Of a stretch of DNA of 64,000 bases, positions 3,956 through 55,014 are shown one piece after another. Origin of the DNA: Bolinopsis microptera (taxonomy: Eukaryota; Ctenophora; Tentaculata; Lobata; Bolinopsidae); contig NC_087083.1 of assembly GCF_026151205.1 (NCBI RefSeq), forward strand, positions 6,426,460 to 6,490,459. Reading direction: 5' to 3'. Position numbers and translations under genes: made by a program. How positions within the stretch are numbered: the stretch's first letter is position 1; each line of letters starts with the position of its first letter. The notes beneath the pieces are model-generated. The model did not search any database, was not told the DNA's origin, and saw only the letters and a list, made by a program, of their open reading frames with translations.

Positions 3956-4012
3956 TGAAAACTAACGTGGTAGTTACTTCAGAAGCAGTACCAGAAGGTA
4001 TTTAGTAACCCT

Positions 4013-21795: not shown

Positions 21796-23106
21796 GTTTC
21801 AAAAGAAATTTTCTGAACACAAATTTGACAGAATTAGATGAATTTTTGCCACAAAACCAATTAGTCAGTTATTTGATGTGGTATGAACAAATTGGGGTAC
21901 TGAAGTCAAAATCCCGAAATAAAATTGTAAAATCATATATTCACAAATCTCTGTCCCACTTTCAGTTTTTGAAGAAGAACTTTCAGGACCGACATTTTAC
22001 AGTTTTTACGAATTTTTCACTGCAACAATTAGTAAGTACATACTATAGATGGCATATGACCGATTGAGGATGCTGGAAGATTGATTATCGTTCGGAGGAA
22101 GCCCACAGCAGGAATAGAAAGCTTAAGAAAACGAAAAGGCTGTATTTTCAAAAAGTCTATGTCCCATTTTCAAATATGAAATTGTTGAACACAAATTTGA
22201 CAGTTTAGATGACATTTTTGCCCACAAGCCAATTAGTCAGTTAATTGATGATGGTATGAAAACCCAATTTGGGTACTGGAAGTAAAAATCCCGAATAAAA
22301 TTGTAAAATAATATATTCCAAATCGCTGTCCCATTTTCAGTTTTTGAAGATGAAATTTCCAGGCCCGAAATATTTACAGTTCTTACTGAATTTCTCACTG
22401 AAACAATAAGAAAGTAACTTTGGATGACATATGAACGAATGAGGTGGCTGGAAGATTGATATCGGTCGGAGGAGCCCACAGCAGAAAGCTTAAGAAAACG
22501 AAAGCTGTATTATCAAAAGTCTGTCCCATTTTCAAATATGAATTTTTGTACATACATTTGGAAAGTTAGATGACATTTTTGCCACAAACATTTAGTCCAG
22601 TTAATTGATGATGTATGAAACCAAATTGGGGTACAGGAAGTCAAAATCCTCGAATTAATAATGTAAAATCATTTATTCAAATCTCTGTTTTCCCATTTTC
22701 AGTTTATGAAAATGAAATTGCAGGACCGAAATTTTACAGTTTTTACTGAATTTCTCAACCGCAACCAATTAGTAAGTCAAACTATAGATGGCATTGACAC
22801 GATTGAGTTGTCTGGAAGATTTGATCTCGGTCGGAGGAAGCCCCAGCGAAAGCTTAGGAAACGAAAAGCTGTATTTTCAAAAGTCTGTCCCATTTTCAAA
22901 TAGAATTTTCTGACACAAATTGACTGATTAGATGGACATTATTGCCCACAAAACCAATTAGTCAGTTAATTGATGATGGTATGAAACCAAATTTGGGTAC
23001 TGGAAGTCAAATCCGAATAAAATTGTATAATCATAGATTTTCCAAATCTCTGTCCCATTTTTCAGTTTTTGAAGATGAAATTTCCAGGACCGAAATTTTA
23101 CAGTTC

Positions 23107-23110
<4 letters not shown>

Positions 23111-23141
<31 letters not shown>
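23111..23141. repeat. Poly(T) insertion of about 31 T within one satellite monomer
   Basis: The run interrupts the monomer between GTTCTTAC and TGAATTT without other change. It is either a real homopolymer insertion (for example, the remnant of a retrotransposed A tail) or a base-calling artefact. Confidence 0.85.
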
Positions 23142-31927: not shown

Positions 31928-32215
31928 GAGTACGCGCGCGCTACAGTTTTACACCGCGCTCAATTTACCAGATGATGTAGCATGTGACTCTCTGTTACTG
32001 AGGTGTAAGTCAATATAGTGCATATTATGACACGTCTTGCTCGGTGCACGGGAAGTCTCAGGTGTATGTGTCTGTGTGTGAGCGCTCCAGCCCCACTACC
32101 CTCCCGCCCGCGAATCGCATCGCTCAGACAACGTAAAATGTGTATTTCCATAAGTCTGTCCACCAACTTTTCCTATTCTACTATTCGAGACTCTTTTTTC
32201 TGCAACACAAATTGA
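31928..32215. repeat. Aberrant satellite monomer with foreign, GC-rich replacement sequence
   Basis: Flanking monomers are normal. Across this one, short satellite words (CTACAGTTTTA, GTAAGTCAATATAG, GACACG, TCTGTCCA) keep their order and approximate spacing, but the sequence between them is unrelated and GC-rich, including CGCGCGC and CTCCCGCCCGCG. Total length is close to one monomer minus its unchanged ends. Confidence 0.6.
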
Positions 32216-32302
32216 AGATTAGATGACATTTTTGGCCACAAACAATTAGTCAGTTATGTTGATGGTATGAAACAAAAGTGGGGTACTGGAGTCAAAATCC
32301 GA

Positions 32303-32333
32303 AATTTTTTTTATTTTAAAAAAAAAAAAAAAT
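32303..32333. repeat. T-run/A-run inverted homopolymer insertion in a satellite monomer
   Basis: Where other monomers read CCGAATAAAATTG, this one has eight T, ATTTT, then about fourteen A before TAAATTG, which would form a short A/T hairpin. It could be a real insertion or a sequencing artefact. Confidence 0.7.
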
Positions 32334-35300
32334 AAATTGTAAATCATATATTCCCAAACCTCTTGTCCCTTTATCAGTTTTGAAGATGAAATTTCCAGGA
32401 CCCGAAAATTTTACAGTTTTTACTGAATTTCTCACCGCAAACCAACTTAGTTAAGTCAACTATAGTTGGCATAGACACGATTGAGGTTGCTTGAAGGTTG
32501 ATATCGGTCGAAGGAAGCCCACAGCAGAAAGCTTAGAAACAAAAAGCTGTATTTTCAAATTCTGTCCCATTTTCAAATATTGAAATTTTCTAACTAAATT
32601 GACAGATTGATGACATTTGCCACAACCAATTAGGTCAGTTAATTGATGATGGTATGAAACCAAATTGGGGTACGGAAGTCCAAAATCCTAAATAAAATTG
32701 TAAAATCTTATATTCAATCTCTGTCCATTTTCAGTTTTGAAAGATTGTGAAATTTCCAGGACCGAAATTTTACTGTTTTACTGAAGTTTCTCACCCGCAA
32801 CCAATAGTATGTCAATTTTAGATGGCATTTTTAATTTTTAGTATGACACGATTGCGGTGCTGGAGTTTGATATCGGTCGGAGGAAGCACAAAGCAGAAAG
32901 AAAGCTAGAAAAACGAAAGCTGTATTTTCAAAAAGTCGTCCACTTTTTCATTATGAAATTTTCTGAAACAAATTTGACGATTAGATGACATTTTTGGCCA
33001 CATCCAAATAGTCAGTGAATTGATGATGTATGAACCAAATTGGGGTACTGGAAGTTCAAATCCCGAATTAAATTGTAAAATTCATTTATTCCGAACCTTG
33101 TCCATTTTCAGTTTTTGAAGACTAAATTTCCAGGGGAAACCGAAATTTTACATTTTTGACTGAATTTTCTCACCCGCAACCAATTTGTAAGTCAACTATA
33201 GGATGGATATTTGACACGATTGAGGTGCAGGAAGTTTGATATCGGTCGGAAGAAGCCACAGCAGAAAGTTTAAGAAACGAAAGCTGTATTTTAAAGTCTT
33301 CTGTCCCTTTTTCAATATGAAATTTTCTGAACACAAATTTGACCGATTAGATGACCATTTTTGGCACAACCAATTAGTCAGTTAGATTGATGATGGTATG
33401 AAACCAAATTGGGGTACTGGAAGTCAATATCCCGAATAAAATTGTAAAATCAATATATTCCATATCTCTGTCCCATTTTCAGTTTTTGGAAGATGAAATT
33501 TCCAGGACCGAATTTTACAGTTTTTACTGAATTTCTTCACCCGCAACAACTAGTAATAAAATATAGTTGGCATATGACACGATTGAGGTGCTGGAAGTTT
33601 GATATCGGTCGAAGGAAGCCAAAGCAGAAAGTTAAGAAAACGAAAAGCTGTATTTGCAAAAGTCGTCCCATTTTCAAATATGAAATTTTCTGAAACTCAA
33701 TTTGACAATTAGTGGAACATTTTTGCCACAAAACCAAATATTCAGTTAAATGATGTGGTATGAAACAAATTGGGGTTCTGGAAGTCAAAATCTAAATAAA
33801 ATTGTAAAAATCATATTTCCAAATCTCTGTCCATTTTCAGTTTTTTCTGATGATGAAATTTCCAGGACGAAATTTTAAGTTTTTTACTGAATTCTCACCC
33901 GCAACCAATTGAGATAAGTCAACTATGATGGCATATTATGACACGATTGAGGTGCTGGAGTTGATATCGGTCGGAAAGAAGCCCACAGCAGAAAGCTTAA
34001 GAAAACGAAAAGCTGTATTTTCAAAAGGGTCTGTCCCATTTTCATATATTCGAAATTTTCTGAAAACAAATTTGACAGATTAGATGAATTTTGGCCACAA
34101 ACCAAGTAGTCAGTTTTAATTTGTGATGGTATGAAACCAAATTGGGCGGTATGGAAGTCAAAATCCGAATAAAATTGTAAAATCATATATTCCAAACCTC
34201 TGTCCCATTTTCAGGTTTTTTGATGATGAAAATTTTCGGGACCGAAATTTTACAGTTTTTATGAATTTCCTCACCCGCAAACAACTAGTAAGTCAACCTA
34301 TAGATGGCATTATGACCGATTGTAGGGGCTGGAAGTTGATATCAGTCGAAGGATGCCCACAGCAGAAAGAAAGCTTAAGAAAACAAATGCTGATTTTCAA
34401 AAGTTCTGTCCCATTTTCAAATATGAATTTTCTGAACTCAAATTTGGGGACAGATTAGAATGACATTTTGCCCACAAACCAATTAGTCAGTTAATTGATG
34501 ATGGTATGGAAACCCAAATTGGGGTACTGGAAGTCAAAATACGAATAAATTGTTAAATAAAATCATATATTTCCTACCTCTGTTCCCATTTTCAGTTTTT
34601 GAAGATGGAATTTAGGACCGTAATTTTACAGTTTTTACTGAATTTCTCAACCCGGCAACCAATTAGTAAGTAACTATAGATTGGGCATAAGATGACACGA
34701 TTGAGGTGCTGGAAGTTTGATATCGGTCGGAGAAGCCAACAGCAGAAAGCTTAAGAAAACGAAAAAGCTGTCTTTTCAAAATTTCTGTCCCATTTTCAAA
34801 TATGAAAATTTTTGACACAAATTTGACAGATTAGATGACATTTTTGGCCAAAACCAATTAGTCGTTAATTGGAGATGGTATGAAAAACAAATTGGTGGTA
34901 CTGGAAGTCAAAAATCCCGATAAAATTGTAAAATCATATATTCCAAATCTCTGTTCCATTTTCAGTTTTTGAGATGAATTTCCAGGACCGAAATTTTACA
35001 GTTTTACTGAATTTCTCACCCGACCCAACTAGTAAGTCACTATAGATGGCATATGACACGATTGAGTGCTGGATGTTTGATATCGGTCGAAGGATGCCCA
35101 CAGCCAGAAGCTTAAGAAAACGAAAAGCTGTTGTATTTTCAAAAGTCTGTCCCATTTTCAAATATGAAATTTTCTGAACTTCAAATTTGGACCAGATTAG
35201 ATGACCATTTTTGCCACAACCAAATTAAGTAATCAGTTAATTGATGATGTCTGAAAACCAAATTGGGGTACTGGAAGAATCCCGAATAAATTGTAAAATC

Positions 35301-35709
35301 ATATATTCCAAATCTCTGTCCCATTTTCAGTTTTTAAAGATGAAATTTCAGGACCGAAATTTTACAGTTTTTACTGAATTTCTCACCTGCAACTAATTAG
35401 TAAGTCAACTATAGATGGCATATGACACGATTGAGGTGCTGGAAGATTGATATCGGTCGGAGGAAGCCCACAGCAGAAAGCTTAAGAAAACGAAAAGCTG
35501 TATTTTCAAAAGTCTGTCCCATTTTCAAATATGAAATTTTCTGAACACAAATTTGACAGATTAGATGACATTTTTGCCCACAAACCAATAAGTCAGTTAA
35601 TTGATGATGGTATGAAACCAAATTGGGGTACTGGAAGTCAAAATCCCGAATAAAATTGTAAAATCATATATTCCAAATCTCTGTCCCATTTTCAGTTTTT
35701 GAAGTTGAA

Positions 35710-35970
35710 ATTTGCCGCAATTACGTTGTAAGGTTGGCTGTTTTATTCCGTCGTATATACCAAAATCTTGTTAGTACCTTAGCAACAGTAGTCAACACAT
35801 CTTTCGCAGAGGGGATTTTCCCTAAAGCTTTGAAAACGGCAAAAGTTACACCTATACACAAAGGGGGTTATAAACTTGATGTAGCGAATTATAGACTTAT
35901 CTCACTCTTGGGCTTGTTATGTGTTATGAAAAACTTATGCTTCATAAACTTAACAACAGTGCATTATTAG
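35710..35970 (+). pseudogene. Reverse transcriptase N-terminal fragment (CR1-like)
   Basis: Starts exactly where the satellite stops. It encodes the first reverse transcriptase block: NTSFAEGIFPKALKTAKVTP, then IHKGG, DVANYRLISLL and a drifting continuation. The catalytic blocks are missing. Its sense strand is +, opposite to the 8.9-11.7 kb copies. The satellite may have expanded inside, or next to, this element. Confidence 0.6.
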
Positions 35971-37610
35971 GAATTTCTTCAAGTGCCTGCATTTTGAGAT
36001 TAGCTCGGTCCTGCTGTTGATGGACTTCGGGTTTTTGATGATGATGAGCTTTTCTGTCAGGCACAAGTTGCACGTTTTCACAATTTTTTATCTCGTTAAC
36101 AAAATTGATTGGGTAATCAATGGTTATCCAATCACTAATCATGTGACAGCTTGTTACAACACCGTAATTGGGCTCTCTCAACGATTCCCATAATGCGGGA
36201 AAATGTAATTTGAATGGCCAAACACAATCCAATACAATTTAGCTCCATCCAATTATTCAATTCCTCGAATGAGCGATAATAGCAAGTCATATCAGAAAAA
36301 AAAACTCAATCAGGAACTCATTGACTGAGCTATAAAGGCCTGACTTTTGGCCCCAATGGCGACAAAGAATGTTTAGGCTGGAAAATCTCAAGCTTGTTAT
36401 GGCAGGCACAAATAAACAGGATTTAACTGTACTATGTGATTGGAGAAACCAGTAACATCGGACATCCATGTCCATTGTCCAGAGCACACGTGCTGTATAT
36501 ACTTGATATTTTGATAAATTTATATGAGGTCCTGTTTATACTAGCACTGTTCTTTTTTATACTAAAGATATATTATGAGGTTTAAGAATCATTAAAACCA
36601 CAAATGATTTTGGTTTGAAATTATAAGGGGATTGAAATCAAAATACAATTGACCTATGTAGAACATGAAATAAATAGCACGTCTCGCTTACTATCTAGGC
36701 TAAATGTACTGATCGCACTACGCACACAATTCTTTTGTTTTCACTCAATCAAAAACGATGCAACAAGTTGGAAATAAACTTAACATTTTGAAATAAAAGA
36801 AGAGTTTAACGATGCCAAAGTCCGTCGTAAGCTGAGCGAAAAGAGAATAGTAATAAATAATTTAGGTATGGATTTGTGAGCATTAAACTAGCTAGAGCTA
36901 TACGTCAATCATTTTAGGATCTAATAGATAATATTATAATCAATAGATTTGCTATGGAACTTAACGAATTATGCTTTTACGAATTAGCTAAAGTCGTTAA
37001 ACAAAGAGTTTATCGTTTATTGAACAGCGCATTCAAAAACGTAGAAGTATATCAATGAAAAAATATGAAGTTGCACCAAATATAAAAAATTATAATAACT
37101 CGACGTTATCGAAAAACTTTAGAACATAGAAGATAGAAGATGAATATTGAAAATATGTCATTATATAGCATTTGAAAAACATGCAACAAATAAGTTAGTT
37201 TAAAGTTATTTCATGCCACAAAATCACACGACAGGATCATGTAACTTTGACTAATTATTAATTAAATTCCTAACATTAAGAATTTAGTCCCTACAGCTAC
37301 AATTTTAACTTTCTCTTTACAATTTCGTTGTCCCGATCGATACTTAATGTTAAAGATTCGAATTAAAATTGAAGTATCATTTTAAAGATTTATCTGTTTG
37401 TTTGTGACTTTGTTAATCAAACCAAGTCACCACAATCATTTTTCAGTTGATTAGCAAGTTTAAAAGTTCCCTAGATAAAAAGATGTTCGTGGCCAGCACG
37501 ATTCGCCTAAACTTAATGAAGTCCAGTCGCTGGATTTCCGGAACACGAAGGTTGTGCAGTCAAGTGGAGTGGAGTAGAGTGCTGAGCGTTGCAGTGATGA
37601 AATGATGACG
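35971..37610. other. Gene-poor spacer
   Basis: AT-rich. A 96-codon minus ORF (35942-36232) has no recognisable domain. Nothing else is supported. Confidence 0.35.
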
Positions 37611-37719
37611 TCACGTTTCACCGTCCGACACGGCCTCTTGAATCTCGCTGGGCACCAGGAGTAATTCACAACATTTCACCTTGTGCTCCGTGCTGTTGTC
37701 TATGGGGTTATGTCGCATC
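37611..37719 (-). CDS. Short-chain collagen gene: candidate terminal exon 1 of the CC-motif set
   Basis: Acceptor TTTCAG (complement of 37720-37725), then one base and 35 codons to TGA. It encodes MRHNPIDNSTEHKVKCCELL and a short unique tail ending DGET. The leading G completes Lys with the AA left by the constant exon at 49502-49580 (phase 2). The KVKCCEL block aligns with the candidates at 38657 and 44169. In dermatopontin-type modules a stretch like this, with an aromatic or basic strand and a Cys pair, closes a disulfide loop opened by the upstream CPxxxAM motif; that comparison is from memory. The stop codon overlaps a perfect TGACGTCA at 37606-37613. Confidence 0.6.
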
Positions 37720-38656
37720 CTGAAATTAAAACACTCGTCAGAGAAGAGATAATTTTAATTGTGAGTTCTGTAAAACAAGGGGATATGGATCATAGAGATC
37801 AGTCGATAACCATACACTTAATTCATATCAACGAGTTCAATACGCTGTGAGTAACACGAAATGAAGGAACATCTTCAAACTACTACTAAATTTCTTGTTG
37901 TACACCCGTTTATGTGAAATGTTCAATTTGGTTTTGTCTCCTGTAGAAATCGGGTAAATGTCAAGTAGGTCAAACAATTAAAGTCACAGCTAAGTGGTTT
38001 GCAATAAAACTACTTTACTACTTTGAGTACATAAAATAATAAAATAACTGTAAGCATATAGATATCATACCAGTCAGTTTGAAGTCTGTACAATCTGTCC
38101 AAAGTAAGCTTATTTATTTGTGTTCGGCCGTCAGTAAAAAATGATCGGGTCAAGAATCAAGAATGTCACCTGATTTGAAAACAGTTGGACTTCTTTGACA
38201 GGCGTGTAGTCAAAAGTCGAAGTTCCGGCTAAATGAACTGCAGTAATTGTCACTGGCAGGCTTAAACAACAAGTCACCTGCCAACTGAACAGTTCACATG
38301 GTTCATAACCAGCGCGCGGGCTTTTTAAACGGCGCGCGCATTGATTTGCGCATGAAAAGACGTAACAGTATTACCGCGTATTCCAGCGAGTTGCTTAATC
38401 AAACCTACAGTTGCAGATCTGTAAGTTAGTCAGTAAAAGTTGGGAACGCTCCAAGAATATACCAATAATTCGGTCAATCTCAATTATCAATCAGTCGTAC
38501 AAAAACCACAAAGGCAGTAAATAGGTAGCCTAACTAGTTCCTTCAAAGTTCTGTCGGTAAAATTATCATACAGCTCCAAGAAAAGCAATTCTAATCTGAT
38601 TATAAAGTGACAAAACTTGACAAAAACAATAAGATTTAATCGCATTAATTTTGCCC

Positions 38657-38801
38657 TTAATTCTTAACCCTGTCACAGTCTTTTTTCTCGTTGATCTTAT
38701 CGATAAGAGCTTCAATGATCCCGTCACTTTGATCGAGAGCAATCAGCTCGCAACATCTTATTCGATACTCCAATTTACCGTCAAGGAAGTCAAGTCTGTA
38801 T
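38657..38801 (-). CDS. Short-chain collagen gene: candidate terminal exon 2 of the CC-motif set
   Basis: Acceptor CTACAG just above 38801, then one base and 47 codons to TAA. It encodes YRLDFLDGKLEYRIRCCELI and a longer charged tail (IDKINEKKDCDRVKN). The Cys pair is at residues 16-17, the same position as in the 37611 exon. The phase again matches the constant exon (AA + A = Lys). Codon choice looks coding, and the plus-strand ORF over the same bases is a shadow. The tail has an extra Cys absent from the other exons. Confidence 0.62.
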
Positions 38802-40223
38802 CTGTAGGTTTGGTAATTGTTACTTTTGTAACAGTTATTGTACGTCAATTTCTGTACAGCGGGGTGAAGCGGAAAGTGCTTATCTCGACTTCTAGCACGT
38901 TCATTTTCTCTATAGCGAGACAGCGAATAAAAAGAAAAATATTGCAGGAATTCACTGTAATCATGTAATACGTTTTAACTTTAGGTATTCTACGGTAATT
39001 ACATTTCTTTAGCTTTGAAAATATTTCACATAACTACAGCCACTAGCCGATGTTTGCAATTCAATACTAAATGAACTGTGTGCTACAAAACGCAATGATC
39101 TCGAGACACGGAAATGATTGTGATTTTAATTACAAATGCTCAAATGACTCCAAAAATACATAAACAAGGCCACTACTTCACTTTACTTAACTTAACTTTA
39201 ATACACGTTTTTATAAAGCAATGAAAAAACCTGCATATTTCTGCTCCCCTTTTATTAGTATCCAGGTAAAATTTATCGAGTATAATATTTTGAATTTTGT
39301 GCCCCGGGATAGCTTAATCAGTCGTGTCTAAGTAGCCCCACTTAAACCGTTATTCAAAGATAGTCTGATAGTGATGTCTGATAAGAGTATGAATTACTGA
39401 ATTGCATTTTAGAGACAATGGTTTAATCGGGAAGAATTATCTCTGATTTCAGTCGAGTCTAGGACTAATCCTGTTACAAAATACTAAATACTCTAAATTC
39501 TGTTCAAGTATTATCTGACACAATTCCAAGTAGTTTCCTTGTGAAATGTTCCCTGAATTGTAGCTAAATCTCGATAAATGTCATCTTATATTATAGCAGT
39601 GGAGTAAAAAAGGTCATCACAGCTACAGGGCTGCGTCATCGTTATTTAGAGGTTAAGAGGGGTCCGATAGGATTCTAATTACGAAGATTAAAACTCGCAG
39701 GTTGCACAGAAATCGCGAAATATCTTGTCCGCATGTCACACGATTCTTTATAGTCTGTAAGCCATGACTCGCGATTAATTAAAATATAAAATTGGCAGTG
39801 AATAGTGATGGAAGAAAACAATCAATTTAGCCTGATCATTAACGCAAAATCTGTGAAATTTTTGTGTCATCACAATAATTTTTATATTTGGCTTCAGTGG
39901 TGACTGGTGGCAGAAAACCTGCTAATATGAATCATCGTGAAAAGACTTGAAAAGTAGCAGTTCACACGGAGTTTTAAACAACAATTCGTGTTAAACATTT
40001 GTGCATGGTACTTAAAGTAGCTGTGAATAAAATGGATTTCCTTGAGCCGTGATTCTATGAAGCAGAGCTGAGAAATATTTAAAACCAGCAGTTCCGAAAC
40101 GGCCGGACCCAGAACGCTGCGTTCATGCTAAAACATCTCGAGTTGATTACTCTAGTGGCAGTTTTAAAGTCTGGAATTTACGAACACCCGAGCTGGATGG
40201 CCAGGACATTAGTCGTGGTACAT

Positions 40224-40325
40224 TTATATCGACACACACTTAACCTTCTCCCAGCTACCGGAATTTCTAACCTCCCGAAACTCCTGTAACTCGTGCTGCA
40301 GTGAGGCTACAGCTTCTAATCATTG
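40224..40325 (-). pseudogene. Possible degenerate copy of the collagen terminal exon
   Basis: The minus strand reads LQHELQEFREVRNSGSWEKV then KCVSI and a TAA stop. The W-x-K-V-K-C end resembles the HKVKCCEL and EYKVHCCEL blocks of the neighbouring terminal exons, but the second Cys is Val and no phase-2 acceptor with a pyrimidine tract is evident. It could be a decayed duplicate or chance. Confidence 0.25.
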
Positions 40326-43300
40326 GCACTGGTATGCTACTTGATTGCAACGCTGGAAATCCCGTATAGAAACATACCAGAATCAATATGATCAATCCCA
40401 GGAGTGCTATATATAGACGCAGAAATTATTAAGCAGTCAAGTGTCTAGTGTCTACGCTATAATATCGACATTATAATGCTGCAGTTGTCATTGCAATTCG
40501 TCCGGGTATGGTAAAATCATTTTAACAGATCCTGATAACCGAAGATGCGTCACTGATATCATCAGCAAACCATCACATACGCTATATTTCAATATCAGGT
40601 GTCCTTAGTCTTACTACGTGTCATACTTGTATCCTTGAGATTAGGTTTAAAATAATGCTTATTCAATAGAATAAGGCAACATAAATCACCACAGCGCGAG
40701 CGGTTACAGCGATGTTGAACATCTGACTCTACCACAGTGGAGGTGGTGGATCATGAGATTTGCATATTTGGTGCGTCACTGCTGGAACCTGCACTGATTG
40801 GTCAATCACTAAAATGTGTAAAATAAATTTGCCCAGGTATTGGATAGTACTTCATTCCACCTTCAGCTTACAAATTCTGGGAAATTTCTGTCCTCAAACA
40901 TTCAGGTATTTTCCGAATATTTTGGGGACTAGAACACCGGCCCTACACAGCAATGTGGAGTATTTCGCCAAAAGAGAAGGCATGCGACACATCAGGCCCT
41001 ACAAAACTTTTACAGATACCTTCCGACATCTATACATCAATATATCCAGCTATTGATCTCCATCAAAAGGGCCAATTGATATCGAATTGATCATTCAATA
41101 TAAAGGGTGGTGACGAAGAGTTAGTACTTAATATGCTTAAATAGATGAGGACGATGAAAGTTGCACGTGCACACAGTTCAATACTCCAAATCACGTGACA
41201 CTAGCTGCCAAAGCCACGTGACAGTGACCCAGGAACAGGAAGTGTGTATCTAAGCCGCGAGAGAAGATCAAAGAGTTGGATACACGTGAGGCGTGGAAGA
41301 ATGGGGCCACGACGACTACTTTTAACTGCCCCAGAATGAAATGCACTTAAAGTGGGGGTCAACGGAAACGTCAAACCATGTTTCAGGTTTCAGTAAACTT
41401 CTGTATCGTCCTGTTTCAGCGTTGTAGCAACTTATCCGGGCCGAGCGAGACGACGCGAGGAGATGAGGTTGATAAATTTGTCACTCGATAACTTGTCGTA
41501 ATCTGTTCCCATTATCAGTAATTTGTCCATATTACATAATTACAACTACTCAGTACTCCCTTTTCACACCACACCCTATTTTTCATCCAACTCTTAGAAC
41601 TCCTATCTCCACCATACCATAGTTCAGTTTAAGTGGACCAATTAAAAATGAAGACCCTTAAAATATTAAGTCGATAAAAATCTAGCCCTAGATTTTAGAT
41701 ATTTAATGTGTTTAATAGCACGGACCATCTGATGCAAATTATTTCCAAATTACGGGCGATTATCTTAAGTGTTTGGATATTAACTTCAGGAAGGATAAAT
41801 ATTGGAAAGTAAATGTTTTATGCAAAGTGTCAGGTAGGCAAATAATGTGATCTTTATTTGTAGGTCTATCACATTCTTTATATCACTTTCTTTATATAGC
41901 ACAATCAAGACACCAATATTGGTTAACGTATAAAAAGCAAAATCTTCTACCAATAGTTTGAAAAACTCGACCTCAACCCAACAGAGATAAAATCGATTCT
42001 TGATCAGTTAAGAATATCTAAATATTGATTTAAGTGTTTATAGATCAGTCGAGTTATTCAAACTTTGTTTAACAATAACACATTGCAACAAACGAGACGT
42101 GTAGGTCCACACAATAGTATACAGCGACACCGCGGTGAACTTACGTCACAAAAATTAATAAGTTATGAAACGAGATCTTTACAAATCCCTGTTTACCATA
42201 ATATTTGTATATAAGTATTCTTTAACATCCTTTATATTTATAACGTGTACAGTTAAAAATAAAAATTCTTTCTCTTGCGACCCAAAAATCATGTTTCCTA
42301 AATTACTGTTTAATTCCGACATTATCCCTGAAAACCATTAACTTCAACAATTAAATTAAATATTGAAGGAGGAATTAAGATCGAATCTTAAACATAAACA
42401 AGGCCATCTCCAATATATACGAAAGATACATCATCAAGCAGGGGTGTACACACAACACCCCTTTACAAGTCAAACTCTCAAACAATCTATCTGGCCGAAA
42501 ACATCTTCTAAATCTAAGCTTTTTGGCTCTAGAACAATCAAGAAATAACGTAAAAATAAAAATGCAAAAATGTAATGTAGCAAAGTTTATATATGAATAA
42601 CCTAAGTAAAAATCATCAGACCCAAGTAGGCCAGCATGTCGAATAGCTGATTTCAAAATAAGATGGAACGTTTTGTACCGACTTCAGCTCTTTAAATCAT
42701 CAAAAGTACTATAAATCTTAATCTTTTCCATCGCTATACGCTAACAATACCACATAATACCATGAAGATTACACGCTCACAGCGCATTGCACGTGCAAAA
42801 ATACTTTTAATGATAAACAGATCGTGCCAATGATGGCATCTTTACAAAATATTTCATGTGGTATTGCTGGAGCCTTGATCGATCTATAATATATAGACCT
42901 TTTGAAATAGCATAGAATTTTACTTATTAAGTTATTTAGTTTATAATATATTATTATGAAGTTGTAAATTTAGGTTCCAAATTCTTAACATCTTTGCAAA
43001 TTGCTGTGTTTTTTTTACAAAAGGAATGATTTTTTGAGGTTTTAATCTACTGCTAGTTTGACTCAAACAAGTTAAGAAAATCTTAGTTCATCATTAAATT
43101 CATTACAAATAAAATAATGAAATTAACCAAGGAACCGAGCTTAGCAGATTGCAAAGATGTCGATTATAGTACCAAACATATCATATTCTAATATAATATT
43201 ATATTCAAGTTATCATATATTAACGATGAGGCAGAGCATGCGCTGCAATACCGTCCAAACTCAACTCATTAAATTAACTACATTAGTTAACCATTTGGTT

Positions 43301-44083
43301 ATTTTCGGAGTTCACTTGACTATGATAGTGTAAAATAATCCATTTATAAGGGTCGTTGAAACGCTACACTTCAGCATTTTTGATATTGAATAACTTTACG
43401 AGCTCTGATAAATCCTCATAAAGCCGAGGAATTATTTTATTAATATATTAAAATTCAGTGCATTTCTAAATTTTTCAGTTCATTGAGGTCACATGTTCAG
43501 AAGTTAACATTTGTTTGTCATTAATTAGTGATAGCGTTTCAACGTCCGGGAAGAATGTGCAGAATTTTCTGGGAAATTGTTAGGAATTTCATAACAAGGG
43601 GCGAATCAAGCAAAATAAATTCAAAACACGTAAAAATAGGTGTCCAATGTAGGTAATAATTAATATGTGTCAGTTCCACAATGGAACGAATTACAAAACT
43701 TCAATTCATGCAAGGTCCGTAATCTGTTTGGCACTGTTTGAGGGACGATATTATAATTGCAGAACGAACGTATTACTAATATAGTTTTTGAACTGTTTCA
43801 TTCTTGTTTGAACGATTCGTCGTTATGATGCCCATAGCGGCAAAGCAAACTTCGCTATTTTGTCCGAAACTAAATAAGTATTTATATACTCAGACTTAGT
43901 AACAACATGAAACGTGCATACTATGGCGAGGAAGTTGTGCGCGCACACGTGCGCTTTCCTCCCCTCTTAAAATCTTTTCATCAGACTAATAAATATATAA
44001 TTCATCGCTGCTTGCAGCCATGAAAGGAGCGTCTTGGAGTTCATTACAATATGTACAGTGTCATCTGACTTTCGCTTTCGTGA

Positions 44084-44137
44084 TGACGTCACGTGATAGT
44101 GATGACGTCACGTGGTTTGACGCAGCTGATGACGTCA
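44084..44137. promoter_or_regulatory. Cluster of three CRE-type palindromes (TGACGTCA)
   Basis: Perfect TGACGTCA at 44084, 44103 and 44130, two of them continuing into CACGTG. They lie just beyond the stop of the 44169-44271 exon. TGACGTCA is the CREB/ATF palindrome. Function here is not shown; further single copies are at 37606 and 47518. Confidence 0.45.
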
Positions 44138-44168
44138 TGTGAGCTGTCATGTGAGGACTATCTCCCTT

Positions 44169-44271
44169 TCAAGGTTCACGTAAGTGAGCTTCAGATGTGG
44201 ATGTTAGAATTAGCTCGCAGCAGTGCACTTTGTACTCAAGTAGGGCGGTATTTCCCACCTGCCTGCGGTGT
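44169..44271 (-). CDS. Short-chain collagen gene: candidate terminal exon 3 of the CC-motif set
   Basis: Acceptor CCTCAG just above 44271, one base, then 33 codons to TGA: HRRQVGNTALLEYKVHCCEL followed by ILTSTSEAHLREP. The Cys pair sits at residues 17-18 and the phase matches the constant exon (AA + A = Lys). It is the nearest of the CC-type exons to the constant part of the gene. On the minus strand the acceptor is preceded, 40 bp upstream, by a long CTGTAA repeat (TTACAG on +), which occupies the place of branch point and pyrimidine tract. Three perfect TGACGTCA palindromes follow the stop at 44084-44137. Confidence 0.6.
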
Positions 44272-44312
44272 CTGAGGAATACTTCCATTAAAACTGTGTG
44301 AAACACTTCTTG

Positions 44313-44573
44313 TTACAGTTACAGTTACAGTTACAGTTACAGTTACAGTTACAGTTACAGTTACAGTTACAGTTACAGTTACAGTTACAGTTACAGTTAC
44401 AGTTACAGTTACAGTTACAGTTACAGTTACAGTTACAGTTTGAACTACAGTTACAGTTGACTAAGTTACAGTTACAGTTACAGTTACAGTTACAGTTACA
44501 GTTACAGTTACAGTTACAGTTACAGTTACAGTTACAGTTACAGTTACAGTTACAGTTGCAGTTACAGTTACAA
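44313..44573. repeat. (TTACAG)n microsatellite, about 43 copies
   Basis: A hexamer repeat almost without error except for a short interruption (TTTGAACTACAG ... TTGACTAAG) at 44439-44466. It reads CTGTAA on the collagen-coding strand, in the putative intron just upstream of a terminal-exon acceptor. ORFs of alternating Leu-Gln or Thr-Val across it are artefacts. Confidence 0.95.
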
Positions 44574-44577
44574 TAAT

Positions 44578-44632
44578 TAGGGGTACAACAAGTATTGAAT
44601 AATATTCAATACTTTTGTTGTACGTACCCCTA
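44578..44632. repeat. Near-perfect hairpin next to the TTACAG array
   Basis: TAGGGGTACAACAAGTATTG is followed by its reverse complement with three small bulges, around a tiny AATA/TATT loop. The stem is about 25 bp. It directly abuts the TTACAG array and is followed by three copies of a 16-bp AACTTAATGATAAC-type repeat (about 44678-44725). Confidence 0.8.
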
Positions 44633-45944
44633 AATATATTCAATGAATATGGGATAGAACTGGACAAAAAAAGGCTTAACAACTTAATGATAACAACTTA
44701 ACGATAACAACTTAATGATAACAATAACAATGACATTAATATTTAATTAAGCCTTTAATCACTCCCTAAGAGTGTTGGCATAACAATAACATTGTCAAAA
44801 CGGTATAAACGTGCAGATAATATTATTACATTATGCAAATAACATTGCAGGGCAGCTTTATAGTTGATATTGAAATGTTGATAGTATGAGGTGTTTATTT
44901 TTGACATGATCATCATAGCAGCAGACATTACGGCACGTGAAATCAAATCTAATTTTGCAAAAATGAAAATTTGGGTGTTATTGACCACAGCTCTATCTGT
45001 TAAAGACCGGGTGCACTATTTCATCTTTTAAAATCTTTTAAAAGATTTTAAAAGATTTTTCGGGAAATAAATCTCTAATTTCAATGTTATGCACTTCGGC
45101 AGATCTGATGACAAAAGAGTAATTGTAAATTATGGAGGTAAATCCAAAACTAGGTCCACAAACGCCAGTCCGAAACATACATTACTGCAGGAGAGACCTG
45201 ATTAAGTACTGAAGGAGGCGGGAAAAAATCGCACAATTACTGTGACATATGATTACTTGACCGGTAGGGTGTTTACTAGGGTGAAATTGCAATTCTATTC
45301 GATCAACCGGCAAACTTAGGTCCGTCAACCGGTCAGTATTTCGGAGGACAGTAAGTATTGCGGAGGAGGGACGTTGGAAGAAAATTCTTGATTGAACGGG
45401 GGACAAACAAGATACGATTTCGGACTTTGGTGCCGGGCAGTTGACACATGAATGAGGGTCATTACGTTTTACAGTCGGAGGAATGTTGGATTCAGACCTG
45501 AATTCTCATTCATGAAGACGGGAAATTTGATGCACGTTCGTGAGATTTTTTTTGCGGGAAAATAATGATGTCGGAACAATGGCTTATAGTTGAATTTACT
45601 GAGTTGCATAGCGTGGTGTTAATACTCTAACGTGATTGGCGGATGTAGGACAGTATTGGAGCTGTGATTTGTGGATGATAATCACGTGGGTGTCACGTGA
45701 CCCGAGTGAGCGTGACGCAGGGCTCCTCACAACACGGGAGAAGAAACAACTACCAGTAATTACAGCTCTGTCACTAACATGCAGCCGCGCAGGCACTTCA
45801 CCACCATGTCGCTCCTTCTTAGGAATTTAGTTCAAATTGCATATTCATCAAGTTCGTGAGTGTGGTGGTGAAAATACCGCATCCTTACCTCAACATTCTC
45901 TGAACCTCGTGCCAGTGGAATTATGCACCAGACTGGGATAGTCT

Positions 45945-46060
45945 AGAGCCAATGAGTGCTGCTGATTTTGATCACGTGACAATGAGAGCCAATGGGAGCC
46001 GCTGATTTTGATCACGTGACAATGAGAGCCAATGAGTGCTGCTGATTTTGATCACGTGAC
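45945..46060. repeat. Three tandem 40/41-bp units with E-box
   Basis: Units begin GAGCCAATGAGTGCTGCTGA and each ends with ATCACGTGAC, giving three evenly spaced CACGTG E-boxes and three CCAAT motifs. It could be regulatory, or simply a minisatellite. Confidence 0.85.
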
Positions 46061-46244
46061 TTGATATTTTGCCGCGTGGGCTGAGAGCACTAAGGACCAA
46101 TGGGGCACGTGGTGAAGTAGGAATTGAATGAGATTAATTTTGTTAATTAGATTATCATTCTGATGCAGTTGTTTCCAGCAGATTACAATGGTCACAATGC
46201 TCCACGACATGCTTCACAGCGCTGTTATTATTATTATATTATAA

Positions 46245-46455
46245 TCAGGTATTAAAAAAACAATCTAATAACACAACATTGTCTAGACGGTCAGGTATTA
46301 TTTGGATATTGGCTGACACAAGAAGAACAATATGAAAAAAGCTGCAGTACGCCACACGGCTCTGAAGGTTAGTGTGATCTCGTGGCGTCTCGAGAACGCA
46401 TGGTATGCCGTGATATAAAATACGTCGGTCACCAGCCAAGATGGACATTTGAATA
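46245..46455 (-). CDS. Possible additional terminal exon of the collagen gene
   Basis: Acceptor ACCACAG just above 46455, one base, then 70 codons to TGA, in the same phase 2 as the CC-type exons (AA + T = Asn). It reads IQMSILAGDRRILYHG, then PRDHTNLQSRVAYCSF and a hydrophobic tail. LAGxRRxxYH followed by a D-x-x-x-L-x-x-R-V-x-Y-C strand is reminiscent of dermatopontin-type repeats, but the double Cys is replaced by Tyr-Cys and the length differs. Plausible but unproven; it may be a chance ORF. Confidence 0.3.
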
Positions 46456-49400
46456 CTGTGGTAAAATTTCGAAGTGACAGGCACTTTATGTACGAAAGAT
46501 CTTGTGATTAATTTAGGGAGACTAAACACTATTCCCACTACCGAAACTTGGCCGAAAATTAAAGATCTGCAGCATATTTTTAGAAAAAAACGTACGAAGT
46601 TTCTTTACAGTCGTATTTTTAGCAGTTGTATTTTTAGAAATCGATTGAAATTTAAACTATAAGGTATTTAATTTAAACGGCATCGGTTTAGAGTTCCTTC
46701 AGTTCAAATAAATCACGAGGCTCGAATTTATAGAGTCAAACCAGAGTTTATAATGTATGAGTGGAGCGGACTGTTGTCTTTCTGGGGCCAGACTCACAAT
46801 AGCCTGATCTCTGGTATGCAATATTGGGAATATTCATTACTCATTTTGTTTTATATCTGGGTGGGATCTTCATTCTTCAATGACAATGGAATGTAGGCTA
46901 TGCCAATTAGCGAAAGTTTAGGGGCTGCATTTTTGAGCTCTTTTTTATCTTTAACCCACAGGCTGTAAGGTATGCTAGTTTTTGAAGCCCTTGCTTTTCC
47001 ACAGAAATCCCTGCTACATAATTCGGAGAGGCTGTCGAGCTCTGGGCCCATGTTAAGGCTCTGGGCCCATGTTGAAGCTCTGGGCTTGAAAGGAGGCTGT
47101 ATAAGTTCAGAACACAATAAGTTTTACGATCGACATTTAAACAATAAACGAATATATTTCAGTGCTAGGGCTGAAAGAGGTGAAGGTAAAACTGAAATTT
47201 ACATGAAGTTACAGGTTTCTAAATGAATATCTGGTTATTAGCTCAGACTGAAACAATAAGGACAATGTTTACATCGATAACCATATAGGTTAATAGTAAT
47301 ACAGAATAAACAATGAGATACTTTAACTTAAAAGACATTTTAAGGGCATAAGTGTAATTCCTAGTGAGACAAAATAAAGACATTGACATTTAACATTTAA
47401 AGTAAACAGTTTACAGTTTCACACAGTTAAAACGGAAGATTCTTTTTTCAGACCCGCAAACAGAGTCTCAAAATTGAGGCTGAGTATGCCCTTGAGAGTA
47501 ACGCGTGTGCCATCACGTGACGTCATCATTGCGTCATCACTATCAGCTTGGTCATGTGACTGCATCACACATAAGCTAGGTTATCAGTTTAACACATAAG
47601 TAACCCCTGAACCCAGAATATATCAAGAGAAGAAGGCTTTTAGAGGCAAAGAAATTTCATCTAAAAAGATAGAGGTCCCCAACATGAGACCGCTGCTCCT
47701 CTCATCCCAACCAATATCCAAATAATAGAGATACTATCAAGATAGTATCCAAGTTCCACAGACGAATAACTCAGAAGAACACACGTTAGTTTACAAGACG
47801 ATCTTAAGATCATTTGAAATAGTTTATTTAAACATGCAGTTCATGCAGCAATATGACATCATAATTTACTTTAAATACCAGTATTTACAACTTAACAGGT
47901 TACAGCATATCTTAACGCCACACATTTATTATTTTTACATAATATCTTAACCAATGTAAGTATCGTTTATTCTCGCGGGAAGTAATCTAAACTTACTCTT
48001 ACCAGTCAGACGTTTATTGTTTAGCGTTTGGGAAGTAATGGGTCTTGGGACCTAGATCCGTAATCGAGTAAAGACTAAGAAGAGGGTTTACGCTCATTAT
48101 AAAATAGTCAAGTCACGGGTTAAGCGTTCATTGTAAGGAATATCTCCAACTGGGCGAAACTACACCGACTAACAGATGACAGATGCCCTAAGTATTCTTG
48201 TGGGAGGATTGGAATTCCTGGAATGCCGACCCTTACTAATTGCAGCAAGCTTGCCAGTGTTATCCTTCCGGCAAGCTTCACACGGATACTGAACTGTTGG
48301 TGAACTGTAGACTGTTCACGATCGTATGTTGTCCTGAACTTTGATTGGTCAATTGCAGGTCAGGTGTTTAGTCTCTGTATTCTCATTGGTCAGCTTGAAT
48401 TTGTCTAGCCATAGGTCGTGTAAAACAGTGTTTGTATTAGTAAAATACAGTGTAAACAATGTTGTGTGTAAAATAGCCGCTGTATGGTTTAAAATAGCCG
48501 CTGTATGGTTTAATACCGTCAAGTTGGATTGGGGGGGGGGGGGGGGGGGGCGGTGATAAATCCAATTTACCACACCAGGGATATGCTTAGTTTCCTCCGG
48601 AAAGTTTGACACCTTACAAAAATAGTACCCATCCTCAGAAAAAATGAAGAATAGCCAAGGGTTATCTTCAGATCGCTCAAGTCACTGTTCGTCTACAACT
48701 ATTTGGCAACAATGTATCTGATTTTTTGTTAACTCAATTATCTTTACTATCGCAAGTATACCGGGGGGGGGGGGGGGGGGGAGGGGGGGTGACCCCATCA
48801 CTGCAACGATATGTCAAACAATGTTCTCTTAACTTGGCCAGCCAATTGTCTTATTTCACAGACTGTCAAACTCATTCCGTGTCTGTAAATACACACAACA
48901 AGTAGGTTCTGTCAAACAAATACCATCAGTTCTACATTGAGAATGAGCTGTTGTAACAAAAGTTCATTCGCCACGAAAAACACCGAAAAATCACACAGAC
49001 AACTCGACGGACAAATTCAGTTTTACACCAGACCAACGAATTGACGGACCTAGAATGGTCTGGGCTCGGACTAATACGAGAGTTGCCCCCTAAGCTACTA
49101 GACCACAAATATCGTACAAAGTCTACAAGTTTAGACAGACTAAAGTGCTTCACGTACGATGGTACACGCCCTGTACTCTACAAATTGCCCACAATACTGT
49201 TAGACACGTGTGATGGATTGGAGAAGTCACGCACTTTTACGGTTATCGATGTCTGTTTGGTGCTTGAAACTGATGTTCAATTTGGGCACGTCTAGTTTTA
49301 TAAACAGTAGTGGTTGAAAGTACGGTTAGATCTCTATTGTCTAAGTGCTGAATATCATGCAAATCAGTGTTATAATGCTTCGCGAAGATCGGATCAAAGG

Positions 49401-49501
49401 TGGGGCGGCGGTATTATCACAAAACATACAATCTACACGTGCAAAATGAGTGAAACAATATAGCACGTGCAAAGCAGCTGGAATTTAGGGAAAGTACTTA
49501 C
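46456..49501. other. Intron space with low-complexity tracts
   Basis: Contains a CRE palindrome at 47518-47525, a 21-bp direct duplication (AAAATAGCCGCTGTATGGTT type) at about 48473-48514, poly(G) runs at 48531-48550 and 48763-48789, and an 84-codon plus ORF (49041-49295) with no recognised domain. Confidence 0.45.
48531..48789. repeat. Two poly(G) tracts (20 G; and 18-19 G + A + 7 G)
   Basis: Runs at 48531-48550 and 48763-48789. They have strong G-quadruplex potential on the plus strand; in the minus-strand collagen transcript they would read as C runs. Lengths are uncertain. Confidence 0.9.
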
Positions 49502-49580
49502 TTCCAGCCGACAGTTGACATGGCATGAGAAGGACACATAATTTCCACTGTTTCTAGTTCGTCTCTCTGCTTTATCCATC
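49502..49580 (-). CDS. Short-chain collagen gene: constant exon with CPxxxAM motif
   Basis: Acceptor TTTCAG and donor GGAA/GTAAGT bound a 79-bp exon. Its first two bases complete Gly with the previous exon, giving GWIKQRDELETVEIMCPSHA then MSTVGW, and it leaves AA (phase 2). The W...C-P-x-x-x-A-M-x-x-V-G pattern resembles the start of a dermatopontin-type repeat, where the Cys pairs with a downstream Cys-Cys strand. That strand is supplied by the candidate terminal exons at 44169, 38657 and 37611, all with a matching phase. It lies in an extracellular protein by inference from the collagen part. Confidence 0.72.
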
Positions 49581-50297
49581 CTGAAAAATAAAGTTTTATC
49601 GTTTGATGAAGTGATTGATTGATTAAATTTTAATAAATTTACTAAGAGAGCTATAGGAAGATATTGAAAAAGGTCTCTATAGTAGGAGTTATCATACGGG
49701 TTCTTCTATTTTCACTTTCTTCTAGATCCTGATTTCTAAGGATTCTTTTAATTGAGTTTGACTATCGTAGAGTTGGAAAGGTGCGACAAATTAAACGGTA
49801 TTCCAGAATCCCTAAAATCTCGACAGAACCCACTAGGGTTTAACCTCGCATATTATTACAGACCAAAATGTGTCAGCCTAATTAATCGACATTCCACTAA
49901 TTAATTGATAATGATCCAAGTACGTGCGGACATGTTTTGTTTGCATAACCTTGTGGACAAATAGCAGCGTTATGTAAGGCTGTTTCCCTTTTAAGCACAG
50001 GTCACCTGTTTTAATACTTAGGATAACAACAACTCGAGGATGGTCTTTATTGATTTCATGTTACTAATGACAAAATGTTATTAATGACACCATTTAACAG
50101 ACAAAATTGTTTTATATTGAATCAGGAGACCAACGTAAACCTATCTACCAGTCGCACTGAAATTATATGATAACAGTCGGAAGCTTTTAAAGTACCTAGC
50201 AGTTTCACTCCTCCATTTAACTTACATACCAGCTGAACAGATACCTAAATTATAATTCGTAAACTCTATAAAATCTCTAAATAAGCGGGACGCTCAC

Positions 50298-50433
50298 CTT
50301 TTGTTGGGTACCAGTTGCAGTTAAGGTGTTGGATGAGCATGCCAGAGTAGCCGGGCTCGCCTTTCTCTCCGTTAGCGCCCTTAACACCGGGGGATCCAGG
50401 TGGTCCTGGATTTCCATCGTTACCTGTTAATCC
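50298..50433 (-). CDS. Short-chain collagen gene: exon with last Gly-X-Y triplets and Cys/Trp junction
   Basis: Acceptor TCACAG and donor AAAG/GTGAGC. It encodes GLTGNDGNPGPPGSPGVKGA and NGEKGEPGYSG, then leaves the helix as MLIQHLNCNWYPTK. Ten uninterrupted triplets are followed by a non-helical segment with Cys and Trp. The exon starts in phase 0, matching the donor of the 51390 exon, and ends in phase 1, matching the next exon. Unlike vertebrate fibrillar collagens there is no 45/54-bp exon rule and no C-propeptide. Confidence 0.85.
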
Positions 50434-50718: not shown

Positions 50719-51389
50719 CTTGGGGTCACCAGGTATGGCTATAATTTCACTTAAATCATCTATAATCCAACAAATTCGATCAGATGGCTGGTATATTCGT
50801 TGACCTGTTATTAAATATTGATTATATTGATACTTATATTGATACTTCTGACTGATCTGCTACTTTTATCTGCTTTGAAAGGGAGGGGGAACGGTCGGGT
50901 GAGGTCTTGATCAGAACAGATATCAAAATACACATATTGGGGGTTCGCCACTTGGTTTTAGGCGGGATGAAAATTACCACTAATTACATCGGTAATTAAG
51001 AAGTAGCATGTCAGTGGTCATGAAGTAACAGCGTTAACATTCTTAGCTGATTTTTATTGCACTCGTACTGGTCAGTGACTCAATAATTCCTCCTTTTGAT
51101 GCCACCACTTGATGGATTTAGCGGATCAAGAGCATTGATCTGGCCTCATATTGATGACTCTTCCTTACAGGATATTTTAATTCTTATCGATATTGTATTA
51201 TCGTTTAGTGAAGGTACTTAGTGCAACAGATCAATAGATAGACATTATATTAGGGGCCCGCTTCTCTCTACAACAGGCAGGATATCCTTTGTCATTAGAA
51301 TACCAAGGGGATTTCACTGAGGACCTGTGGTAAGAAGTTGATCGAAAAGACGTGATTTGCTTGAGTTTGGTTAGACTTAGTTACTTACC

Positions 51390-51459
51390 AATGGTCCAAT
51401 AGGTCCAGTGGGTCCTTCTAATCCAGGCATTCCTTCCCTACCAGGAGGTCCTTGGAATC
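51390..51459 (-). CDS. Short-chain collagen gene: all-triplet exon
   Basis: Acceptor TTTCAG and donor TTG/GTAAGT bound a 70-bp exon. The G left by the previous exon plus GA make the first Gly. It encodes GFQGPPGREGMPGLEGPTGP then IGPL, eight perfect Gly-X-Y triplets. Phase 1 in, phase 0 out, consistent with both neighbours. Confidence 0.88.
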
Positions 51460-51583: not shown

Positions 51584-51746
51584 CTCTGGGACCCCTGTCC
51601 CCTTTAGGGCCTCTCAAAAGGTTTGGCTCGCCAGTAGGTGAAGGAGTGGAACTTGGGAAGTCTGTGGTTGACCACACGTCCGGAGCTTGGCCCGAGTCTC
51701 CCTTAATCTTAACAGCACTGTACTCGATCCCACGACTCTCTAGAGC
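51584..51746 (-). CDS. Short-chain collagen gene: exon with N-terminal linker and first triplets
   Basis: Acceptor TTCAG (complement of 51747-51751) and donor AGAG/GTAATT bound a 163-bp exon. It starts in phase 0 and encodes a non-helical segment (ALESRGIEYSAVKIKGDSGQ, then APDVWSTTDFPSSTPSPTGE) and the first triplets GPKGDRGPRG. With the next two exons this makes about 21 uninterrupted Gly-X-Y triplets, typical of short-chain (spongin-like or minicollagen-size) collagens rather than fibrillar ones. A Ser/Thr/Pro-rich linker before the helix could be glycosylated. Confidence 0.85.
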
Positions 51747-52366: not shown

Positions 52367-55014
52367 CCCATTAGGGACGACGAGTTTTAAAGTTTGCTGA
52401 TTTTGATGCCGTTTAACACACTAGGTCACTTTACAGCAAAAATGAGATATCCAAAAAAGCTAATCTGTATCTCGTTTACTTTATAAGATACAGCTATGGT
52501 CGCATACGACCCTCTCGTCCGGGTCGCAAACGACCCATCACGGTTTTTCGGCTTTAACTTCTGAAACAAAAACGTTAGGATAGAATAAAAACTGTAGCAT
52601 AAGTTAAAAACAAATGATCAATACTGTGTGACTCTAACTTTTTAGAAATAAAGAATTTGGGTCATTAACGACCCACTCGGCTCACTTGCTTATTACTGCA
52701 TATGTCCATGTAACTTCTTGAATTCAGCCTAAAACATGACATCATAAGTGCAAACTTGCCTCTCAGCAAGTGATAATCATCATAAACTGCGAAAAATCGG
52801 TTAAATTGGTCATTAGCGACCCACTAGGATCACAAAATTGATTAATTAAATATAATGTTGTGAAACTTTTACAAATATTAGTATAAAAACATGTTATATC
52901 TTGGTCATTACTCCTGTACGTTGATTTAACTTCTTAAATCGATCAACTGGGTCAATAACGACCCACTCGGAAGTTGAACCACGACATTAATTATCAGTAT
53001 CATGCCGTTCCACCATCAAGAAAGACACTCGTAGGTCTTAATTCCACGCAAACCACGGGTGGATGACCACTAGCCCTCATGAGATCTGGAGTCTCAAGGT
53101 GATCTGCAGATCACGTCACCCAATCACTGACGAATAATGAGCAGAATTGGATTGATAGGTAGGTGAGTTTATTAGCTGTTAGTACACGACCGTAATGTCG
53201 TGAGATAACAAACAACGTGCCTATCTTTTCCCGATTCCTAAAAAGTCCAAGAAGAACTATACAACTGCTGGATTCAGATTTCTGATGGCTGCATCTACTC
53301 ATTTCGCAGCCTCCTTTCTTTACTTCTTAGGGGCCGTTCACATATTACGTAATCACTTATTGGACAATTTTTACCCCCCGGCCCACCCCACTACATAGCT
53401 ATTATGTCAAAATTACACTAGCGTAATCATTTGGAAATCCCTCTCAGCCGATTACGTAATACTTGGTTTCGTTTTGAAAGCTGCCTCGTTGTTGCGGGGT
53501 TGTAACCCAAAACGGAGTAGTTGTCTGAGAGATTGCAGGTTGCAGCACCGCCAGCCAGATGGGGGGGGGGGGGGTGCTTTTTCCTTGTCCTTCTTCACAG
53601 AGCTGGTGATGTAGCCATCTGAATGCAGCAGTTGTTTAGTTATTCTCGTACTTTCTAGGAATGTCAAACAGATTGGCATGTTGGATTAGAATATGCAATT
53701 TGACCGCTCTTCTTTCAGTGTTTACCCAAGGTTACAGAAATATCTCGTATACTTCGTTCACGGTATTTTTCTTGAGTGACATGATCTGATCACCGTGGGA
53801 GCCTGGGTCTCAAGCGGTTGTAGCAGGTCGTTTACCAAGATTCGAAATTGACAAAAAAAGTAACAGAATCTAATAAGCAACAACAACAGTATGGCCATTA
53901 CCTAGCAAGTTAGGAACGAGGGCTGATCTCCTTTTCTTTTGCGACACGGCCACGGTCTTTTCGGTGCAGATTTCCACAAGCCCACGCACCATAGTCAGGA
54001 CGCAACTCCAGCATATGCAGTCGTGTTATTCTCGCAGCTTTTTGATGAGTGATGACTGCCCTTCAGTTGGCCCTGGATCTCAGGAGGGCTAGTTGTCAGC
54101 CACCGTGATTTGTGTGGAATTAAGACCTACGAGTGTCTTTCTTGATGGTGGAACAGCATGATAATTAATGACGTGGTTCAACTTCCGAGTGTGTCGTTAT
54201 TGACCCAGTTGATCGATTTAAGAAGTTAAATCAACGTACAGGAGTAATGACCAAGATATAGCATGTTTTTATACTAATATTTGTAAAAGTTTCACAACAT
54301 TGTATTTAATTTATCAATTTTGTGGTCCTAGTGGGTCGCTAATGACCCATTTAACCGTTTTTTTGCAGTTTATGATGATTATCACTTGCTGAGAGGCGAG
54401 TTTGCACTTATGATGTCATGTTTTAGGCTGAATTCAAGAAGTTACATGGACATATGCAGTAATAAGCAAGTGAGCCGAGTGGGTCGTTAATGACCCAAAT
54501 TCTTTATTTCTAAAAAGTTAGAGTCACACAGTATTGATCATTTGTTTTTAACTTATGCTACAGTTTTTATTCTATCCTAACGTTTTTGTTTCAGAAGTTA
54601 AAGCCGAAAAACCGTGATGGGTCGTTTGCGACCCGGACGATAGGGTCGTATGCGACCGCAGTTAGTAAACAGCGTCTAGCTCTGTTTGTGAACATTTGAT
54701 TATCACGGGCTTTTCATTTGTCTCAAGGAAATCGTTGCCCGCAACTATTTTGTTCTCAAAAAAATAAGCCTACATAAAGTTTAAATGTCCCAATCAAGGC
54801 AAGAAGTTAAGTGAAATATTTTCCAATTATGACGACTAATTAGTCTAATTATTTAATTGTTAGTGATTAATTGGGTCTCGACTGGAAAGTCAACTATGTA
54901 GCCCAATCAATTTTGAGCATATGTGCGAGAGATTCATGGCGTTTAGTATTTTGGTTTGTCCTCTATAGCCTCTAGAAAAGGTGAGTCGTAAACGACCCTA
55001 TCGTCCCTAATGGG
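52367..55014. mobile_element. piggyBac-like foldback element, TTAA-flanked
   Basis: TTAA lies at both ends (52363-52366 and 55015-55018). The ends read CCCATTAGGGACGA inward from each side, fitting the CCC start and TTAA target duplication of piggyBac elements. Further in, 52498-53092 and about 54072-54655 are inverted repeats of about 580 bp with few differences, so the element can fold into a giant hairpin. The arms carry repeated 15-17-bp palindromes of the type GGGTCGTTAATGACCC. The centre (53093-54071) has no recognisable transposase and includes a G run at 53562. It sits in intron space of the collagen gene. Confidence 0.72.

Follow-up and report, generated by a model that had tools for sequence, protein, structure and literature searches.

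Exons of a collagen-like gene in the window

The window, that is, the whole stretch of 64,000 nucleotides of Bolinopsis microptera DNA analysed here, carries on its minus strand a series of collagen-like exons (Ea to Ed) and, downstream of them, the candidate terminal exons CC1, CC2 and CC3. Two of these lie in a repeated unit; a near-copy (D) of the locus and a tandem array of the unit are found elsewhere in the assembly (see below).

51584-51746, minus strand: exon Ea, a non-collagenous stretch ending in GPKGDRGPRG; phase 0 in, phase 1 out
51389-51459, minus strand: exon Eb, GFQGPPGREGMPGLEGPTGPIGPL, Gly-X-Y, bounded by AG and GTAAGT; its frame links Ea with Ec
50298-50433, minus strand: exon Ec, Gly-X-Y up to GYSGML, then IQHLNCNWYPTK; phase 1 out
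49502-49580, minus strand: constant exon Ed (CPSHAM), GWIKQRDELETVEIMCPSHAMSTVGWK; phase 1 in, phase 2 (AA) out
44169-44271, minus strand: candidate terminal exon CC1, tail of 33 residues, stop TGA; same protein in D
38657-38801, minus strand: candidate terminal exon CC2, tail of 47 residues including one additional Cys, stop TAA; frame also open in D and in the consensus of the array
37611-37719, minus strand: candidate terminal exon CC3, tail of 35 residues, stop TGA; frame also open in D and in the consensus of the array

Exons Ea, Eb, Ec and Ed have AG and GT at their boundaries and are joined in phases 1, 0 and 1. The boundaries of Ed read ttttcag/GATGGATAA and GGCTGGAA/gtaagt, the donor being a consensus one. 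A run of 22 consecutive Gly-X-Y triplets spans Ea, Eb and Ec uninterrupted over two in-frame junctions, and the same exons match the Pfam Collagen family (PF01391; E 1.7e-9, 37.8 bits for a cut-off of 27.2). By its triple-helix repeat the encoded protein is collagen-like. The introns among Ea to Ec measure 0.1-1 kb. Inspection of the sequence upstream of Ea (51746) yielded no convincing candidate for a further exon or a signal peptide. An inverted repeat pair of 589 bp, 96% identical, is found upstream of the collagen exons (52498-53086 and 54076-54657, spanning 52498-54657 of the window).

Ea is present in a single copy in the 265-Mb genome searched. No second true copy of Ec was found in the genome, its other matches reflecting weak Gly-X-Y similarity to other collagens; those on C1 and C10 were considered as relatives of the C-terminal module and rejected, both being ordinary long collagens. 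Ed occurs in the genome only at the window locus and in D.

Three candidate terminal exons with a common core

The sequence-only reading had placed a constant exon ending in phase 2 (AA) at 49502-49580, followed by three segments that each begin behind an AG and have a single base ahead of the frame. Both statements were verified: Ed lies at these coordinates on the minus strand with its consensus donor, and the coordinates and phases of CC1, CC2 and CC3 were confirmed, each exon being preceded by CAG and starting with exactly one pre-frame base (A, A and G, respectively). Several homologous terminal exons are found behind one donor in the same phase. The codon at the junction of Ed with CC1, CC2 and CC3 is AAA, AAA and AAG, respectively, coding for Lys in every case. 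The predicted spliced ends, each closed by its stop codon, are GWK-HRRQVGNTALLEYKVHCCELILTSTSEAHLREP for CC1, GWK-YRLDFLDGKLEYRIRCCELIALDQSDGIIEALIDKINEKKDCDRVKN for CC2 and GWK-MRHNPIDNSTEHKVKCCELLLVPSEIQEAVSDGET for CC3.

The same reading had described a common block, E-x-[K/R]-[V/I]-x-C-C-E-L, followed by differing tails and stops. It is present in 3/3 exons, which account for the three matches in the six frames of the window, while none was found in 40 simulated windows. A degenerate DNA pattern of 27 places derived from this motif has 11 matches in the 265-Mb genome (264.65 Mb), all on the minus strand and all (11/11) at one locus that comprises the window, D and the repeat array; the reversed control of the pattern matched once genome-wide. 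The Cys residues of the joined non-collagenous part lie in HLNCNWY, in MCPSHAM and in the Cys-Cys pair, CC2 having one further Cys in a tail that is charged and helix-like. A scan of the window locus found no second CPxxAM exon between the CC exons.

Within the 14 codons of the core, pairwise differences affect 8-10 of 14 third positions versus 3-6 of 14 second positions, and C-C-E-L is invariant despite codon changes (TGC/TGT, GAG/GAA, CTA/CTG/TTA). No DNA similarity was detected among the flanks of CC1, CC2 and CC3, so these exons are not recent copies. Their sequences suggest old duplicates retained under protein constraint; the constraint test has little power, because it covers 14 codons only and dS is saturated, and it is taken as support, not as proof.

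The signals around the three exons are of uneven quality. The pyrimidine tract at the acceptor of CC2 is weak (aaagtaacaattaccaaacctacag), the introns starting from Ed extend over 10.7 kb to CC2 and 11.8 kb to CC3, and AATAAA is found 540-730 bases 3′ of the stops, a density not above the background of 1.5 AATAAA/ATTAAA per kb. A GTTACA hexamer repeated in 43 copies (44312-44572) immediately precedes the acceptor of CC1, with slight length differences in D.

The joined C-terminus had been likened to a dermatopontin-type module. This assignment found no backing, as none of the joined C-termini matched Pfam DERM (PF14704) at E<=10, although this is a weak test for a sequence so short. The genome-wide DERM search also gave no match, a result that is uninformative since its control likewise gave none. 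No sequence relative apart from the triple helix was found in the PDB, no Pfam match to the collagen IV NC1 domain was obtained, and the triple-helix repeat is the only Pfam domain found. The C-terminal module matched no known family. With the CC3 isoform DUF4620 gave a hit (E 0.007) that lay under the cut-off and was absent in the CC1 and CC2 forms; it was set aside as not meaningful.

The 5.36-kb unit, its near-copy and the tandem array

CC2 and CC3 lie in a repeated unit that the sequence-only reading had not described, nor had it described D or the unpolished raw-read sequence beside and inside the window.

37113-42476: 5.36-kb unit with CC2 and CC3, single copy in the window; about 12 noisy head-to-tail copies at C12:6342268-6405107
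35701-50000: stretch with near-copy D (C12:6327958-6342266), 99% identical

D is located 134 kb from the window locus. It is collinear with the window past the unit, with the same satellite on the left side, and it ends at window position 50000 and is devoid of the collagen exons. In its version of Ed one base is missing from an A run, which is probably an error because the neighbouring stretch accumulates scattered one-base deletions. Judged by its sequence, D is probably either the other haplotype, retained in the scaffold, or the product of a recent segmental duplication. An eIF2-alpha-like copy is found in both blocks, 137 kb apart, and the surrounding 1.8 kb of DNA is 96% identical. In the window it is an open frame (1104-1553) whose protein matches C2:10799408 without a difference over 102 residues, and a 97% copy lies at C12:6290755. 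It probably derives from the C2 gene as a partial copy that both blocks share. At 3974-5683 there is a long open frame similar to LINE reverse transcriptases; it may be an insertion in one haplotype, as the homology of the two blocks near the eIF2-alpha copy stops at about window position 2788.

In the assembly D is directly adjoined by the 63-kb array, composed of about 12 units (at least 11 of them complete) on the same strand. The CC2 and CC3 frames of individual array units contain many stops and frameshifts. D and the window differ at 40 bases, and at every one of them the majority sequence of the 11 units agrees with D; in this consensus the acceptors of CC2 and CC3 are intact and their frames open. 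Compared with the window unit, every array unit shows 3.3-3.9% substitutions and 5-6% indel events. Almost all of these indels are one or two bases long, with about as many insertions as deletions, and the substitutions are asymmetric between strands (825 A>T versus 121 T>A). The units are 7-13% distant from the window unit and 14-21% from one another, forming a star centred on the window. With D's unit as reference, the numbers of substitutions shared by one, two, three and four of the 11 units are 1424, 187, 23 and 2, as against 1437, 179, 23 and 2 for random placement. Since indels exceed substitutions, A>T changes are strand-biased and sharing is at chance level, the stops are attributed to raw long-read errors. 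The view of the array units as decayed exon copies (pseudogenes) was rejected on the error profile and the chance-level sharing. Judged by their sequence, the differences within the array are raw-read errors, and no true difference from unit to unit can be made out among them.

The same type of sequence is found inside the window. Between neighbouring units of the 365-bp satellite at 17779-35713, one-base indels amount to 6-7% and substitutions to 7%, whereas the copy of this satellite next to D (C12:6316461-6327958) has 2% substitutions and almost no indels. By this sequence signature the window itself contains unpolished raw-read sequence. The published B. microptera assembly was built from PacBio CLR reads using wtdbg, TGS-GapCloser, Purge Haplotigs and pilon, with polishing by Illumina reads; PacBio CLR or HiFi libraries are listed, as are PacBio Iso-Seq libraries (PMC10232365). 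With such a recipe, gaps in repeats are expected to be filled with raw reads that lie beyond the reach of short-read polishing. Strings of pseudogene-like copies with stops in this assembly are raw-read errors, so that inferring decay or positive selection from such stretches would mislead.

Head-to-tail copies are present in the assembly but lie within raw unpolished sequence. One haplotype may carry many identical copies of the two terminal exons, or the array stretch may be a gap-fill artefact. In the latter case the 63-kb array, and perhaps D too, would have arisen in assembly, from a raw long read that served as gap-fill between two haplotype contigs, was misplaced, or originated from a circular or chimeric molecule. 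We consider this a serious possibility, at clearly less than even odds. It agrees with the gap-closing recipe of the published assembly (PMC10232365) and with the raw-read rates of substitutions and indel events in every unit. The substitution sharing among the 11 units equals the random null, and the array begins and finishes mid-unit at contig-like junctions, which also favours it. Missed PacBio adapters, however, generate inverted copies, so a run of 11 complete same-strand head-to-tail units is an unusual PacBio artefact, and the read must in any case derive from some molecule with such an order of units. This explanation concerns the array and not the three exons of the window; it is compatible with the interpretation preferred below.

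Proposed alternative last exons and comparison with known systems

The best reading of the locus, to which we assign a probability of roughly 0.55, is a single short collagen-like gene whose last exon was duplicated within the locus, CC1, CC2 and CC3 being putative alternative last exons. The proposal that exon duplication gave a short collagen several phase-matched ends stands as the most probable interpretation, in view of the single constant exon and of a motif restricted to the locus. Splice sites and phases fit in 3/3 cases, a single constant exon lies upstream, the motif pattern is confined to the locus, and the frames of CC2 and CC3 are uninterrupted in all three sequences, namely the window, D and the 11-unit consensus. 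The weak CC2 acceptor, the long introns of CC2 and CC3 and the background density of AATAAA count against it. Transcripts would run from the collagen exons to the CPSHAM exon Ed and then to one of CC1, CC2 or CC3, each of which would complete a common small cysteine module before adding a tail and a stop codon specific to it. Depending on which last exon splicing and polyadenylation select, the chains would share a triple helix but differ in their C-termini. C-terminal non-collagenous domains of collagens often direct chain selection and cross-linking, and the different tails may for this reason select chain partners. We infer splicing to each CC exon, and likewise the effect on assembly and the genomic reality of the array.

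It is rather unlikely, though well worth weighing, that only CC1, the exon nearest to Ed, is used and that the other two exons are relics, carried along as passengers by a macrosatellite-like unit of 5.36 kb that adjoins the 365-bp satellite. Both exons do lie within the repeated unit beside a large satellite, and their long introns and the weak acceptor of CC2 point in the same direction. Yet both have kept intact frames, acceptors and motif in the window as well as in D, they diverge at silent sites from CC1 and from each other, and their seeming decay in the array is read error. Very unlikely is that CC2 and/or CC3 are separate short genes with their own unrecognisable upstream exons at the locus: the 3.7 kb of the unit upstream of CC2 could hold such an exon without similarity, and the collagen gene's own 5′ end was likewise not found, but every CC exon fits exactly the phase left by the single constant exon, no further exon of the CPxxAM or collagen type occurs between the CC exons, and elsewhere in the genome there is only the partial copy D. 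The sequence-only reading was to be abandoned if each CC exon proved to belong to a complete gene of its own; no other complete gene was found for any of them.

If the gene has alternative last exons as preferred here, alternative C-termini would diversify matrix assembly without additional genes in a ctenophore, a member of a lineage with unusual collagens. Tandem amplification of the unit with CC2 and CC3 apparently took place on one haplotype. Should the array be real, the extra identical copies of the two exons would add no new tails but could shift the odds of exon choice, and copy-number variation of terminal exons would be added to the system. The fuller proposition, that three C-termini are combined with a unit copy number varying by haplotype from one to a dozen or more, biasing exon choice and the individual's chain mix, is quite doubtful. 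A limited literature search turned up no description of a collagen locus of this type, a result that speaks weakly for novelty.

Among collagens, ctenophore collagen IV and the spongin short-chain collagens are comparable systems (PMC5395295). The locus resembles these as a case of the short or unusual collagens of early-branching animals, and ctenophore collagen IV also has Cys-bearing C-terminal extensions; it differs from collagen IV in having no Pfam match to NC1. Duplicated alternative C-terminal exons are, by analogy, an arrangement of an already known kind, found in insect serpins. PpSerpin-1 has 21 C-terminal forms confirmed by RT-PCR (PMC10513286). Serpin-1 and the collagen locus share a constant body, duplicated alternative C-terminal exons and altered tails in a secreted protein. 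The serpin forms, however, are proven and mutually different, whereas the collagen locus has three differing candidate terminal exons and array copies that are apparently identical. Tropomyosin also has alternative terminal exons (exon 9 series); they are phase-matched last exons that alter the C-terminus of a structural protein, but of a coiled-coil cytoskeletal one and without an amplified unit. Units that vary in copy number and carry exons are known from LPA KIV-2 and D4Z4, the KIV-2 unit being about 5.5 kb long with two exons. They share with the collagen locus, as it stands in the assembly, a few-kb exon-carrying unit arranged head-to-tail in a gene. The KIV-2 exons are internal and all translated, whereas each CC exon ends in a stop, so that a single one would be usable per transcript.
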